From the NCBI GenBank assembly GCA_016763255.1, contig JAESUA010000161.1, forward strand, positions 1 to 10,874: a stretch of DNA of 10,874 bases, read 5' to 3'. The translations under genes and the position numbers were made by a program. This document shows, in pieces, positions 1 through 4,710 of the stretch (position 1 is the first letter of the stretch; the number at the start of each line of letters is the position of its first letter). Source of the stretch: Magnetovibrio sp. Lineage in GTDB: Bacteria; Pseudomonadota; Alphaproteobacteria; Rhodospirillales; Magnetovibrionaceae. The notes beneath the pieces were generated by a model, which was not told the origin of the DNA, did no database searches, and saw only the letters and a list, made by a program, of their open reading frames with translations.

Positions 1-105
1 CTTTATCATTCCAGTGCCTGGCAACTTTATCATTCCAGTGCCTGGCAACTTTATCATTCCAGTGCCTGGCAACTTTATCATTCCAGTGCCTGGCAACTTT
101 ATCAT
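1..105 (-). CDS. Possible start of the gene after ccmB, encoded by the repeat (partial)
   Basis: Starting at the ATG that overlaps the ccmB stop codon, the minus strand stays open through the whole repeat to the window edge. It reads the octapeptide MIKLPGTG four times and then MIK, 35 codons in all. Position and ATGA overlap suit a translationally coupled ccm gene; ccmC normally follows ccmB. However, known CcmC proteins as I remember them do not begin with such a repeat. The true start could be any of the repeated ATGs or one beyond the window, or the array could be an assembly artefact. No domain is visible, so this is only a candidate. Confidence 0.25.
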   Translation of the reverse strand, partial: MIKLPGTGMIKLPGTGMIKLPGTGMIKLPGTGMIK

Positions 106-118
106 TCCAGTGCCTGGC
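1..118. repeat. Perfect 24-bp tandem repeat, about 4.9 copies, at the end of ccmB
   Basis: Four identical 24-bp units occupy 1-96 and a fifth matches for 22 bp (97-118). The array reaches the window edge exactly at a unit boundary, so its full length is unknown. Each unit carries the small inverted repeat CCAG-TGC-CTGG and, on the minus strand, the string GGAATGATAAAG. The copy nearest ccmB is the authentic gene end: its TGA stop (102-104) overlaps an ATG (103-105) in an ATGA arrangement, and every further copy repeats that junction. The unit is eight codons long, so copy-number change would not shift a reading frame. Perfect identity suggests either very recent expansion or an assembly loop at a contig end. 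Confidence 0.96.
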
Positions 119-767
119 GCAGGCCCGCCGCGGAGGCCCAAGGCGTCAGCGCCAAAGAGCCCACCAACATACCGCCCAAAATCAACAGGTGTGGGCGCAC
201 GCTTTGATCAAGAATCGCCGCATCCACCGCCGAAACGCCAAAAATCAAAATCGGGATGTACAGCGGCAAGACCAGCAAGGACAGCAACACCCCGCCACGC
301 CTCGAGCCCAAAATCAGCGCCGCGCCGACCGCGCCGATCAGGCTCAATGTCGGCGTACCCAACAAAAGGGCGGCCATCAAAACCCAAAATCCATCGGTGG
401 GCATCTGCATCAACACCGCCAGCAAAGGTGCTGTGAGGATCAACGGCAAGCCGGTGGTCAACCAGTGCGCCACCACTTTGGCCAGCACGGTGACTTCCAA
501 TGGCACCGGCGCCAGGGCCAAAAGTTCCAACGAACCATCGTCATAATCGATCTGGAACAAGCGCTCCAGCGACAACATGGAGGACAGCAACGCCGCCACC
601 CAGATGGTACCGGCGGCGATTTTCGCCAAGGTGTTGACTTCCGGGCCAACGCCAAAGGGAAACAACACCACCGCGATGATGAAAAACGCCACCACCATGA
701 GGCTGTCCATGCCTTGGCGAAAAGCCAGCGACAAATCACGTTTTACGAGTTCGATAAATTTGCCCAT
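102..767 (-). CDS. ccmB: CcmB, permease subunit of the cytochrome c maturation ABC transporter
   Basis: This 221-residue inner-membrane protein has the usual length of CcmB. With CcmA it forms the ABC module of system I cytochrome c biogenesis, which works with CcmC and CcmD to release haem-loaded CcmE. Six hydrophobic segments are visible, at about 20-40, 47-66, 98-120, 127-153, 157-181 and 193-216. The cytoplasmic N-terminus reads FIELVKRDLSLAFRQG. The loop LFQIDYDDGSLELLALAP (about 70-87) is typical of the family. The start lies 9 bp after the ccmA stop, so the two are cotranscribed and probably translationally coupled. Its last codons lie in the 24-bp tandem repeat, but the copy that ends the gene gives a normal C-terminus. 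Confidence 0.96.
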   Translation of the reverse strand: MGKFIELVKRDLSLAFRQGMDSLMVVAFFIIAVVLFPFGVGPEVNTLAKIAAGTIWVAALLSSMLSLERLFQIDYDDGSLELLALAPVPLEVTVLAKVVAHWLTTGLPLILTAPLLAVLMQMPTDGFWVLMAALLLGTPTLSLIGAVGAALILGSRRGGVLLSLLVLPLYIPILIFGVSAVDAAILDQSVRPHLLILGGMLVGSLALTPWASAAGLRQALE

Positions 768-776
768 AACCGTGCC

Positions 777-1454
777 CTACACCATCTCAAATTCATCGTG
801 TGGTATTTCATAAGCAAAGTCGGCCAGATCCAAGGTCGTCGCGCCCGGCGTATTCACATCCGAATGGGTCGAAAGCACCACCATGCCACCGGCGTCGCGG
901 TGCCTTTGCATCGCCGCTTCCAGGCGCTTGATGGTCGCCTTGTCCAGCGCCGTGGTGGCTTCGTCCAACAGCCACAAAGGAGCCGGCGCGGCGATGATGC
1001 GCGCCAGATTGACCCGGCGTTTTTGCCCGGCCGACAAAAACCGCCCCGGCACGTCATAAAGATGTTTGATCGCGAACACTTCCAAGGCGTCGAGCACCGC
1101 GTCTTCGCCCTGACCGCGCAGATGCGCCCAAAAACCGATATTTTCCGCAGCGCTCAACACCGGTTTCACCGCATCGTGATGGCCGACGTAGTGCAACCGC
1201 ACACCATGCAGATCCATATCTTGGTGGACGTCTTCGGCTTCACCGCCTTCAGACCACGTCATATTTCCAGCGAACGGTTTCAAAAGCCCCGCCATCATGC
1301 GCAACAAAGACGACTTGCCCGAGCCATTGGGACCGACCAAAATCAGCGCCCCGCCCGCACACAAATCGAAATCCAAGCTGGCAAAGACGGTGCGTTCGCT
1401 GCGCACGCAAATTAGGTTTTGGCCCTGGAACCGGGCATCGCTAAATCGGTTCAT
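777..1454 (-). CDS. ccmA: CcmA, ATP-binding subunit of the cytochrome c maturation ABC transporter
   Basis: This 225-residue ATPase powers the CcmAB complex that frees holo-CcmE from CcmC/CcmD during cytochrome c assembly on the membrane. It has a Walker A GPNGSGKS (41-48), the CcmA-type segment YVGHHDAVK (89-97) where other ABC proteins carry the Q-loop, the signature LSAGQKRRVNLARI (140-153), Walker B LWLLDEATTALD (160-171) and the H-loop STHSD (His197). Length is slightly above the usual 200-210 residues. The ATG at 1452-1454 is chosen because it gives the normal N-terminus ahead of the first strand; the Shine-Dalgarno is weak (GGGGAA about 14 nt upstream). It is the first gene of a leftward ccm operon, divergent from acnB. 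Confidence 0.96.
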   Translation of the reverse strand: MNRFSDARFQGQNLICVRSERTVFASLDFDLCAGGALILVGPNGSGKSSLLRMMAGLLKPFAGNMTWSEGGEAEDVHQDMDLHGVRLHYVGHHDAVKPVLSAAENIGFWAHLRGQGEDAVLDALEVFAIKHLYDVPGRFLSAGQKRRVNLARIIAAPAPLWLLDEATTALDKATIKRLEAAMQRHRDAGGMVVLSTHSDVNTPGATTLDLADFAYEIPHDEFEMV

Positions 1455-1477: not shown

Positions 1478-1514
1478 ATGTAGGTTTCGGACCTTATACG
1501 ATCCCCGCTTAAAT
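1478..1514 (-). promoter_or_regulatory. Weak candidate promoter for ccmAB
   Basis: Reading leftward, CTTGTA is followed after 15 nt by TATAAG, about 30 bp upstream of the ccmA start. It vaguely resembles an alphaproteobacterial housekeeping promoter, but the spacing is short and the match partial. Its place between the ccmA start and the upstream minus-strand terminator is where a ccm promoter would have to lie. Treat as a guess. Confidence 0.22.
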
Positions 1515-1524
1515 ACAAGTTTAG

Positions 1525-1556
1525 GCCGGGGATAAAAAAAGCCGGGGACAAAAAAA
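1525..1556. repeat. Two tandem 16-bp units, each ending in seven A's
   Basis: Positions 1525-1540 and 1541-1556 are 16-bp units of the form GCCGGGGA(T/C) followed by A7, differing at one base. A third partial copy (GCCGGG) begins at 1558 inside the terminator stem. On the minus strand this gives the terminator hairpin two successive T7 tracts. It may be a local duplication that arose from the terminator itself. Confidence 0.85.
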
Positions 1557-1582
1557 GGCCGGGTCCTAAAATGAACCCGGCC
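1550..1582 (-). terminator. Intrinsic terminator, minus strand
   Basis: An 8-bp perfect GC-rich stem, GGCCGGGT (1557-1564) with ACCCGGCC (1575-1582), has a 10-nt loop and is followed on the minus strand by T7 (1556-1550). The plus-strand side lacks a T-run, so it works leftward. It lies upstream of ccmA and no protein gene on this strand feeds into it, which points to a short non-coding transcript from the right. Confidence 0.85.
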
Positions 1583-1760
1583 AGTTTGTCAGCACTGCAA
1601 GTAAAGCTTAGTTCCTCAAAGCGTAGTTGATTGGGAGGGAGCCATAAGATTTGAGGAATGCAAAGATGTCAGTTGTGTTTCACCTGTCGTCCTAAATGTA
1701 TGCTTTAGCGTATCGGATGACTTGAGGGGGGAGGGGGAAAGCCATCCGATGAAGATGATT
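1550..1760 (-). ncRNA. Candidate small RNA with two anti-Shine-Dalgarno hairpin loops
   Basis: On the minus strand three stem-loops follow each other. Hairpin 1 (1750-1712) has a 12-bp stem with one G-U pair, arms 1750-1739 and 1723-1712, around the 15-nt loop UCCCCCUCCCCCCUC. Hairpin 2 (1658-1612) has a perfect 9-bp stem, UUCCUCAAA with UUUGAGGAA, around a 29-nt loop containing GCUCCCUCCCAAUC. Hairpin 3 is the intrinsic terminator at 1550-1582. Both loops carry CCUCC, the core of the 16S rRNA 3' end that binds Shine-Dalgarno sequences. As I remember them, alphaproteobacterial 'cuckoo' RNAs share this plan of two hairpins with C-rich anti-SD loops before a terminator. The 5' end is unknown; a TTGACG at 1866-1871 would place it near 1836. 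The design is seen in the sequence; expression and function are inferred. Confidence 0.5.
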
Positions 1761-1842
1761 AGAGCGTCTGATTGTGGTGGCAATGTGTCACAAAGAGGGA
1801 AATGTGATGGTTTTCTTACACCGCTCAAACCAAACACATGTT

Positions 1843-2062: not shown

Positions 2063-2090
2063 CGCATTGTGCGCTGCAATAAATGCGCAC
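2063..2090 (+). repeat. Two overlapping, mutually exclusive inverted repeats in the acnB leader
   Basis: CGCATT (2063-2068) can pair with AATGCG (2082-2087), and GTGCGC (2069-2074) can pair with GCGCAC (2085-2090). The two 3' arms overlap, so only one stem can form at a time. They lie 30-60 nt before the ribosome-binding site (GGAG, 2120-2123). This could be an alternating leader structure or part of a protein-binding site. The pairing is seen; any regulatory role is speculation. Confidence 0.4.
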
Positions 2091-2133
2091 GAAAGTGGTG
2101 CCTAAAACAGGTGCGAACTGGAGATCTATAAAC

Positions 2134-4710
2134 ATGCTAGCCCAATATCGTGAACACGTTGTCGAGCGCGAAGCCCTTGGCATACCCCCACTTCCCCTGT
2201 CCGCAGAACAGACCGAGCAATTGGTTGATCTGCTGCGCACCCCGCCCGCAGGTGAAGGAGAGTTTTTGGTCGACTTGCTGACCAATCGTGTTCCCGCCGG
2301 TGTGGATGATGCAGCCCGCGTGAAGGCCGGTTTTCTCGCCCACATCACCAAAGGCGAAGAAACCTGCTCCCTGATTTCCAAGGTTCAAGCCACCGAACTG
2401 CTGGGCACCATGCTGGGCGGTTTCAACATCGAACCGCTGCTGGCCCTGCTCGACGATGCCGAATGCGGAACCGCTGCGGCGCAAAGCTTGAAAAAAACCC
2501 TGTTGGTGTTTGATTATTTCCACGACGTCAAAGAAAAAGCCGAAAAAGGCTCTAAAAGCGCCAAATCGGTGATGCAATCTTGGGCCGATGCCGAATGGTT
2601 CACATCGCGCCCGAAAGTGCCCGAAAGCCTCACCATCACGGTGCTCAAGGTCACCGGCGAAACCAACACCGACGATTTGTCCCCGGCACCCGATGCCTGG
2701 TCGCGCCCAGACATCCCGTTTCATGCCTTGGCGATGTTGAAAAACCCCCGTGACGGCATCACCCCCGAAGAAGTCGGCGTGCGCGGCCCGATGAAGTTCA
2801 TCGAAGAGCTTAAAGCCAAAGGCAACTTGGTGGCGTATGTGGGCGACGTGGTCGGCACCGGATCATCGCGTAAATCGGCCACCAACTCGGTTTTATGGTG
2901 GACCGGACAAGACATTCCGTTCGTCCCCAACAAACGCTTTGGCGGGGTCTGCTTGGGCTCCAAAATTGCACCTATTTTCTACAACACCATGGAAGACGCC
3001 GGTGCGCTGCCCATCGAAGTGGACGTCACCGACATGGCCATGGGTGATGTGATCGAGTTGCGTCCCTACGAAGGCAAGGCCCTCAAAGACGGTAAGGCGA
3101 TTGCCGAGTTCACCGTTAAATCCGATGTGATTTTCGACGAAGTCCGTGCCGGCGGCCGCATCCCGCTGATCATCGGCCGTGGATTGACAACCCGCGCCCG
3201 TGAAGCCCTGGGCCTGGAACCATCCGATCTGTTCCGCCAGCCGCACATCCCCGAAGACACCCACAAAGGCTTCACCTTGGCGCAAAAAATCGTTGGCCGC
3301 GCCTGCCACCTGGACGAAGGCCTGGGCGTGCGTCCCGGTACTTATTGCGAACCCCGCATGACCACCGTGGGGTCCCAAGACACCACCGGCCCGATGACGC
3401 GCGACGAGTTAAAAGACTTGGCGTGCCTTGGTTTCTCGGCTGATTTGGTGATGCAGTCATTCTGTCACACCTCGGCCTATCCGAAGCTGGTCGATGTCGA
3501 TACCCACAAAACCCTGCCCGATTTCATGGAAACCCGTGGCGGCGTGGCCCTGCGCCCGATGGACGGCATCATCCATTCATGGCTAAACCGCTTGTTGCTG
3601 CCCGACACCGTGGGCACCGGCGGCGACAGCCACACCCGGTTCCCAATGGGCCTGTCGTTCCCGGCCGGCTCGGGTTTGGTAGCGTTTGCCGCCGCCACCG
3701 GCGTCATGCCGTTGGATATGCCCCAATCGGTTCTGGTCAAATTTAGCGGCACTATGCAACCGGGCATCACCTTGCGTGACATGGTCAATGCGATCCCGCT
3801 GCAAGCCATCAAAGACGGCCTTTTGACGGTCGAAAAACAAGGCAAGAAGAACATCTTCTCGGGTATGATCGTTGAGATCGAAGGCCTGCCGGATCTCAAA
3901 ATCGAACAAGCGTTCGAGTTGTCCGATGCCACCGCAGAACGTTCTGCGGCGGGGTGCACCGTTGCGCTCAATCCTGAGCCTATTGTCGAGTATATGCGCT
4001 CCAACATCACGTTGATGAAATGGATGATCGCTGAGGGCTACCACGACGAACGCACGCTCACGCGGCGCATCGAAGCGATGGAGAAATTCATCGCCGATCC
4101 GAAGTTGTTAAAACGCGATGATGATGCCGAATACGCGGCGACCATCGAAATCAACATGGACGACATCAAAGAGCCCGTGGTGGCCTGCCCGAACGATCCC
4201 GATGATGTGAAGTTGCTGTCCGAAGTTTCCGGCACCACCATCGATGAAGTGTTCATCGGGTCATGCATGACCAACATCGGTCACTTCCGTGCGGCGGCTC
4301 ATGTGCTGGACGGCAACTCCGACATGCCGGCCCGTTTGTGGATCGCACCGCCGACCAAAATGGATCAGCAAATCCTCACCGAGGAAGGCTACTACTCGAT
4401 CCTTGGCAAAACCGGCGCGCGCATGGAAACCCCGGGCTGTTCGCTGTGTATGGGCAACCAGGCGCAAATCCGCAAAGGCTCGACCGCCATGTCGACGTCC
4501 ACACGCAACTTCCCCAACCGCCTAGGCATCGACACCTACGTGTATCTGGGTTCCGCCGAACTGGCTGCAGTGTGCGCGCTGTTGGGCCGCATCCCAACGC
4601 CTGCCGAATACATGGAGCATGTCGAAACCCTCAAAGACAAAGCCGACGATGTTTATCGTTACATGAACTTCGACCAAATCCCATCTTTCGTGAAAGCTGC
4701 GGGCGGCTAA
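2134..4710 (+). CDS. acnB: Aconitate hydratase B (AcnB)
   Basis: This complete 858-residue TCA-cycle enzyme interconverts citrate and isocitrate through a [4Fe-4S] cluster in the cytoplasm, and AcnB enzymes usually also handle 2-methylisocitrate. It aligns by eye with E. coli AcnB (865 residues) from end to end: the HEAT-like N-terminal domain unique to AcnB (MLAQYREHV, LVDLLTNRVPAGVD), the swivel domain (GETNTDDLSPAPDAWSRPDI; VGTGSSRKSATNSVLW), and the catalytic domains (GSQDTTGPMTRDELKDLACL; GTGGDSHTRFP). The cluster cysteines are Cys711 (GSCMTNIGH), Cys769 and Cys772 (GCSLCMGN). An in-frame ATG 51 bp upstream (2083) is rejected because 2134 has GGAG ten bases before it and matches the family N-terminus. 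AcnB is a distinct branch from AcnA, which usually sits beside ccmA in alphaproteobacteria. Confidence 0.98.
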   Translation: MLAQYREHVVEREALGIPPLPLSAEQTEQLVDLLRTPPAGEGEFLVDLLTNRVPAGVDDAARVKAGFLAHITKGEETCSLISKVQATELLGTMLGGFNIEPLLALLDDAECGTAAAQSLKKTLLVFDYFHDVKEKAEKGSKSAKSVMQSWADAEWFTSRPKVPESLTITVLKVTGETNTDDLSPAPDAWSRPDIPFHALAMLKNPRDGITPEEVGVRGPMKFIEELKAKGNLVAYVGDVVGTGSSRKSATNSVLWWTGQDIPFVPNKRFGGVCLGSKIAPIFYNTMEDAGALPIEVDVTDMAMGDVIELRPYEGKALKDGKAIAEFTVKSDVIFDEVRAGGRIPLIIGRGLTTRAREALGLEPSDLFRQPHIPEDTHKGFTLAQKIVGRACHLDEGLGVRPGTYCEPRMTTVGSQDTTGPMTRDELKDLACLGFSADLVMQSFCHTSAYPKLVDVDTHKTLPDFMETRGGVALRPMDGIIHSWLNRLLLPDTVGTGGDSHTRFPMGLSFPAGSGLVAFAAATGVMPLDMPQSVLVKFSGTMQPGITLRDMVNAIPLQAIKDGLLTVEKQGKKNIFSGMIVEIEGLPDLKIEQAFELSDATAERSAAGCTVALNPEPIVEYMRSNITLMKWMIAEGYHDERTLTRRIEAMEKFIADPKLLKRDDDAEYAATIEINMDDIKEPVVACPNDPDDVKLLSEVSGTTIDEVFIGSCMTNIGHFRAAAHVLDGNSDMPARLWIAPPTKMDQQILTEEGYYSILGKTGARMETPGCSLCMGNQAQIRKGSTAMSTSTRNFPNRLGIDTYVYLGSAELAAVCALLGRIPTPAEYMEHVETLKDKADDVYRYMNFDQIPSFVKAAGG

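Follow-up and report, generated by a model that had tools for sequence, protein, structure and literature searches.

The minus strand between positions 1751 and 1550 of the window, meaning the whole stretch of 10,874 nucleotides that was analysed, almost certainly carries a real and conserved putative sRNA gene, as judged from sequence comparison. This gene is probably independent, with its own promoter and terminator, and its product would act in trans via C-rich loops. Magnetovibrio belongs to the Magnetovibrionaceae, Rhodospirillales (NCBI), and the RNA appears to be the Magnetovibrio version of an sRNA that many genomes of the order carry, in most cases upstream of ccmA and frequently next to an aconitase gene. 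The features of the locus are collected in Table 1.

Table 1. Positions of the putative sRNA gene, its parts and its neighbours in the window
Feature	Position	Strand	Basis or remark
Putative sRNA gene, ~200 nt	1550..1751	-	-10 box used to estimate the 5' end, terminator to place the 3' end; genus orthologues; covariance-model matches
Conserved upstream block, candidate promoter and possible regulator site, ATCACATTTCCC..TTTGTGACACATT..CCACAAT..TCTAAT	1758..1816	-	spacing conserved
Candidate -10 box, TCTAAT	1763-1758	-	part of the conserved upstream block
Hairpin 1, 12-bp stem, loop UCCCCCUCCCCCCUC	1712..1750	-	fold; covariation; CCUCC in 6/6
Hairpin 2, perfect 9-bp stem, loop with GCUCCCUCCC	1612..1658	-	fold; covariation; CCUCC in 6/6
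Invariant stretch ACUUGCAGUGCUGA, possible second pairing or protein site	1589..1602	-	identical in 6/6 genus orthologues
Intrinsic terminator, GGCCGGGUUC-AUUUUA-GGACCCGGCC-U7	1550..1582	-	terminator scan; pairing in the genus alignment
TATAAGG, candidate -10 element of a promoter for ccmA itself	1492..1498	-	TAAGGT/TAATGT here in 6/6; putative
ccmA, downstream neighbour	777..1454	-	ABC_tran domain, beside CcmB
ccmB (CcmB, PF03379)	102-767		domain match; beside ccmA
acnB, aconitate hydratase B, divergent neighbour	2083..4710	+	PF11791, PF06434, PF00330; ORF as listed

Structure of the RNA and its conservation in the genus

On the minus strand, the first hairpin is formed by AUCGGAUGGCUU (1750-1739) and AAGUCAUCCGAU (1723-1712), with 12 pairs including one G-U, around a loop at 1738-1724. 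The second is formed by UUCCUCAAA (1658-1650) and UUUGAGGAA (1620-1612), nine perfect pairs around a loop at 1649-1621. The predicted minimum-energy fold of this strand contains both hairpins and the terminator, and at -58.5 kcal/mol it was more stable than all 200 dinucleotide shuffles (-43.5 ± 3.4 kcal/mol; z, -4.43). The two-hairpin layout claimed by the sequence-only reading was correct to the base. The terminator was the sole terminator-like site between 1000 and 2500 in a simple scan, although the scan alone proves nothing because 1.6 sites are expected by chance. Past the terminator, a T-run and CCCCGGC pattern is repeated (window 1521-1560), possibly as a back-up terminator; it was not seen in the genus-mates. 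A small-protein reading of the locus was rejected, as ORFs of at least 15 codons from the stem ATG were present in just three of the six orthologues and their sequences were unrelated.

Orthologues were found in all five other Magnetovibrio genomes, M. blakemorei MV-1 included, with E values of 1e-10 to 1e-24 (DNA search, 60 genomes). The six orthologues were aligned to a covariance model built from only two of them (G004 and G003), and in this alignment, where pair counts lean towards the model's structure, the 31 pairs were 90.9% standard. Changes on both sides were observed for 10 of the 31 pairs and in 15 cells, compared with 4.3 pairs and 5.6 cells in shuffles, none of 500 of which scored as high, and sliding the structure along the alignment weakened the signal to 0-6 pairs. 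Such changes affected six of the 10 modelled pairs of hairpin 1 and two of the six modelled outer-stem pairs of hairpin 2, and the terminator had 98.3% of its cells paired. Two MAFFT alignments (A1 and A3), in which the 3' stem arms were misplaced, were left out of the pair counts.

The loops of the genus orthologues read CCUCCCC and CUCCCUCC or CUCCUCCC, and CCUCC, which the earlier reading had placed in both loops, was indeed there and was kept in both loop regions in 6/6 genus orthologues. Neither the stems nor the C-rich loops, whose absence from orthologues that reading had named as evidence against itself, were lost, and the stems covary. The copies do differ in detail: the inner stem of hairpin 2 in the relatives (AAAGG/CCUUU) is lost in the window copy, and an extra GCUCCU between the hairpins of the other five copies is absent from it. 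On the minus strand, 11 G-U cells were counted compared with 6 A-C cells, a small excess that hints at this strand as the RNA strand. The conserved stems and C-rich loops strongly support a putative minus-strand sRNA gene.

Upstream block and invariant stretch

Across the family, the block upstream of the RNA is about 60 bases long and takes the form CATCACATTTCCC..TTTGTGACACATT..CCACA.. followed by a TTTAAT-like -10. Its spacing, read from aligned rows, was the same in 16/16 family loci carrying the RNA, and the 17th locus given, from G061 of another family, had no match to the upstream-block expression. A 24-base block pattern with up to three mismatches matched once each in 10 of the 18 family genomes, compared with 0 for the reversed control; nine of these matches were at the RNA and the tenth was elsewhere (G017:C207, three mismatches). 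With nearly all of its matches in the 18 family genomes at the RNA and one elsewhere, this long pattern gave no shared regulon, and that idea was dropped. A shorter core pattern with three mismatches gave 63 matches in six genomes compared with 33 for the reversed control, and eight of the 63 were inspected. A similar core (TTGACACATTGAxGCCAC or near) precedes a frame judged DsbA-like by eye in five of the six genomes (G000, G003, G001, G005 and G004; L242-L246), and a second recurrent core, TTGACACAATxxGGCGTCAAT, was present in G000, G002 and G004 (L247-L249). As similar cores recur elsewhere among the eight matches inspected, the upstream block was not called unique. The likeness of these core sites may reflect either a regulator shared with the RNA or just a TTGACA -35 box. 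By eye, the block and its candidate -10 (TCTAAT/TTTAAT) differ from the RpoH consensus CTTGAA-N15-16-CCTATAT, as quoted in part of PMC4843759.

The invariant stretch precedes the terminator, and CAGUGCUGAC was also found in G007, G009, G011, G013, G015 and G017, which brings it to 12 of the 16 family loci; it was absent from G008, G012, G014 and G016. The SorX-like RNAs of the same genomes have CCUCCC at the corresponding place. A long-seed target was rejected, the complement of ACUUGCAGUGCUGA having just two other one-mismatch matches in six genomes, both unconserved.

Distribution in the family and the order

As assessed by models R1 and R2 together with the upstream block, the RNA was present in 16 of the 18 family genomes: all six Magnetovibrio genomes, G007, G008, G009 and G011 to G017. 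The model matches in G012 and G016 were weak (E 0.23 and 0.03), and these two were counted as carriers because the upstream block is present. By the same means the RNA was not found in G010, and G006 carries the order-type form with a C-rich hairpin. Plus-strand matches of R1, 28-30 bases long, were discarded as merely the palindromic terminator.

Loci upstream of ccmA were taken from a ccmB search that matched 114 of 120 order genomes. A C-rich hairpin, CCAGAGA-CCCCCC-UCUCUGG or similar, was present in 18 of 23 loci (22 from this search plus L119), and these order-type hairpins were mostly preceded by a GCATAAAGTCGCCACATT..TTTAAT-like block. Model R3 was trained on 16 loci upstream of ccmA; Magnetovibrio supplied none of them and its family supplied one (G006). 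At E ≤ 0.01 this model had matches in 112 of the 317 order genomes, 16 of which had been used to train it, with a single match in 109 of the 112; the other 205 had none at this threshold, and the window's own genome was among them under the stricter filters. Across the class, R3 matched six of 385 sampled genomes, with about four expected by chance. With filters off, it matched 16/16 family loci given (E 4e-7 to 0.015), and the window at E 2.6e-4 over 1726-1804, a span from which it follows that support for the window comes largely from the upstream block and the first part of hairpin 1. For the core hairpin, 43 distinct order-wide rows had 20 cells changed on both sides compared with 1.8 ± 1.2 in shuffles (0/500 as high), a count again made on a model-fitted alignment, which leans towards the model's structure.

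Model R2 matched 69 of 317 order genomes and was set aside for the estimate of spread because 15 of the 17 non-family loci read were SorX-like by eye; of the other two, L107 was an apparent false match and L119 was the ccmA-linked RNA. The SorX-like loci (L102, L105, L109, L110, L116, L121 and others) have CUCCCUG.. and then a terminator stem of the CGCCGGG/UGCCGGG type.

The architecture across the order was deduced from 31 predicted transcripts, taken from 45 matches. In 30 of the 31 a pattern search recognised a T-run, the cut being probably misplaced in L195 and L205. CUCC and CCCC words were unpaired with a mean probability of 0.83, compared with 0.61 in shuffles and 0.51 for all C, and 17 of the 31 had an additional 5' hairpin with a stem of 5 bp or more and a C-rich loop, such as AUAGAC-CUCCUC-GUCUAU, compared with 1.2 in mononucleotide shuffles. 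CCUCC itself was not enriched in these transcripts (19 compared with 21.4 expected by composition), CUCC was found 48 times with 49.5 expected, and CCCC 129 times with 105.5 expected. Since CCUCC does not exceed composition, the feature conserved across the order is a C-rich loop rather than the exact anti-SD core.

Rfam release 15 gave no gathering match in the window, and the 12 matches near the locus up to E 10 were all far below their cut-offs. In 16 of the order loci, a search up to E 0.5 gave a single sub-threshold match, which lay in L187 and away from the RNA. No description of such a ccmA-linked RNA was found in the literature: ccmA has 0 occurrences in the main text of PMC7685610, on Azospirillum sRNAs, and the part of PMC9549626 available mentions ccmA and one Rfam sRNA and no ccmA-linked sRNA.

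Gene neighbourhood and probable independence from ccmA

At the six genus loci the RNA lies upstream of ccmA on the same strand, and the neighbour on its other side varies: it is acnB in the window, and inspection by eye gave acnA for G003 and G004, a Sel1-repeat gene for G001 and G005, and another gene for G002. The true start of acnB in the window is probably near 2137, by eye. At the contig start (window 1-110), at the end of ccmB, a short unit (FIIPVPGN in one frame) occurs head to tail in about five nearly identical copies, either as a genuine repeat or as the result of an assembly edge. In G007 (L043 and L126), the RNA is followed, in place of ccmA, by a frame for a protein that is periplasmic-binding-like by eye, and the displaced ccmA has a SorX-like RNA upstream of it in divergent orientation.

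The sequence-only reading had described a strong terminator with no protein gene to serve. The terminator was upheld, but there is such a neighbour: the ccmA frame (ORF 1454-777) starts 95 bases downstream on the same strand. A ccmA leader therefore had to be tested, in which the hairpins and terminator would form the 5' leader of ccmAB and act in cis as an attenuator controlling read-through. The order of genes fits this in part, as ccmA follows the RNA on the same strand at 6/6 genus loci and the RNA lies less than 1 kb from ccmB, on the same strand, in 35 of the 51 order genomes compared. A leader should, however, always lie directly upstream of ccmA, and in 16 of the 51 the RNA had no ccmB within 1 kb on its contig, the gap being 1.1-7.5 kb in 10 and the RNA being on another contig in six (G050, with ccmB at a contig edge, is ambiguous). 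It was because the RNA is farther off or on another contig in these 16 genomes that an independent sRNA was favoured.

Further observations also speak against a leader. Four genomes (G083, G122, G124 and G301; L228, L229, L230 and L232) lacked any match to ccmA, ccmB or aconitase in the 2.5-3.0 kb around the RNA, and a stem and T-run follow the hairpins of these stand-alone copies in G083, G124 and G301; in G122 no T-run was recognised by pattern. At L231, acnA was the sole match among ccmA, ccmB and aconitase in the stretch around the RNA. The RNA of G007 stays beside acnA, with ccmA about 3 kb off behind another gene and a SorX-like RNA. Finally, a promoter-like block with TAAGGT or TAATGT stands between the RNA terminator and ccmA at 6/6 genus loci, suggesting that ccmA has a promoter of its own. 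A leader is considered quite unlikely, and we infer that the frequent linkage to ccmA reflects conserved gene order.

Proposed mode of action

The favoured independent gene would be transcribed from its own promoter on the minus strand, with a 5' end near 1751, and end at its own terminator near 1550. The RNA is predicted to fold into two stem-loops with covarying stems and C-rich loops, followed by the invariant stretch and the terminator. The loops, with CCUCC and CUCCC, may pair with the purine-rich ribosome-binding sites of several mRNAs, and this trans action, in which C-rich loops cover ribosome-binding sites, is considered likely by analogy. In response to some inducing signal, the pairing would lower translation of the target mRNAs, as reported for NfeR1, an alpha-r14 RNA of Sinorhizobium meliloti that silences ntrB mRNA with anti-SD loops pairing at the translation start region (PMC10746234, in part). 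The frequent position beside ccmA leads to the testable hypothesis of a post-transcriptional coupling between cytochrome c maturation and central metabolism.

The same C-rich loops might instead titrate a partner, either as binding sites for a protein or as mimics of the 16S tail. Titrating RNAs typically carry several similar binding sites, and the order-wide presence of C-rich loops in which the exact CCUCC core is not enriched is in keeping with this. No protein partner is known, however, and NfeR1, the best-studied look-alike, acts by base pairing at the mRNA start region (from part of PMC10746234), and titration is considered unlikely. That the locus encodes no functional RNA, and is a chance pair of hairpins near the terminator of something else, is very improbable; no sequence evidence proves transcription, but the covariation, the conserved upstream block, the presence in many order genomes and the single match in 109 of 112 all argue against chance. 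In a bolder proposal, to which we assign a low probability, the RNA would belong to the core of the order as an sRNA present in single copy, with loops that mimic the 16S anti-SD tail and compete broadly for strong ribosome-binding sites instead of acting on a few targets, linking translation to the respiratory/cytochrome c and thiol-folding state via a regulator that reads the upstream block. The thiol-folding link draws on the core-like sequence before the DsbA-like frame in five Magnetovibrio genomes.

Comparison with known sRNAs with C-rich loops

AbcR1/2 and MmgR carry anti-SD motifs in unpaired regions, according to part of PMC7143759, and the window RNA resembles them in this respect. 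It differs from them in layout and locus and scored 13.3 bits with their model (suhB, RF00519) compared with a cut-off of 41. With SorX (RF02784) it shares a similar terminator stem (UGGCCGGG..), but it scored 15.0 bits compared with a cut-off of 46.6.

A second conserved RNA with C-rich loops, here called type B, was observed in the same genomes (G000:C391:5599-5735, which is L053, and L050, L051, L052, L054 and, in G007, L126). By eye it lies near an EF-G-like frame, accompanied in L050, L052 and L053 by a Crp/Fnr-like frame. Type B scored 29.5-43.3 bits with the Rfam SorX model (cut-off 46.6), and a further SorX-like match was present 0.4-1.7 kb from it in five of the six genus genomes. Overall, the SorX model had a match in 17 of the 18 family genomes, 0 above the cut-off, and in four of 14 in the control set.

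The sequence-only reading had pointed to the cuckoo and CcsR-type RNAs. CcsR RNAs are stress-related alphaproteobacterial sRNAs that, like the RNA proposed here, expose C-rich loops. In Rhodobacter sphaeroides, CcsR1-4 and the DUF1127 protein CcaF1 are transcribed together, the promoter being of the RpoHI/RpoHII type (part of PMC10253847), whereas the window has a single RNA between ccmA and acnB, and no DUF1127 was found in the eight window proteins scanned, both neighbours included.

The closest likeness in layout is to alpha-r14/cuckoo RNAs, for which several hairpins, anti-SD-like C-rich loops, drifting stems and a conserved block upstream of the promoter are described (PMC10746234, in part). 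With two hairpins and a terminator, the window RNA has the same arrangement of conserved loops on variable stems. It has, however, two C-rich hairpins in place of three identical motifs, and it differs in its upstream block and in the additional invariant ACUUGCAGUGCUGA. The cuckoo loop motif CCUCCUCCC was present in 0/6 genus orthologues, and alpha-r14/cuckoo was absent among the 12 Rfam matches at the locus up to E 10. With no Rfam match, no CCUCCUCCC and no DUF1127, membership of cuckoo/CcsR was abandoned, and the alternative that the same reading had offered, an independent design, fits better. The window RNA may work like cuckoo/alpha-r14 RNAs while not being a member. It would place a C-rich-loop design in a lineage in which this analysis detected no cuckoo member, and an sRNA family without an Rfam match is probable in a group that includes magnetotactic bacteria: probably a new family of a known kind of sRNA.
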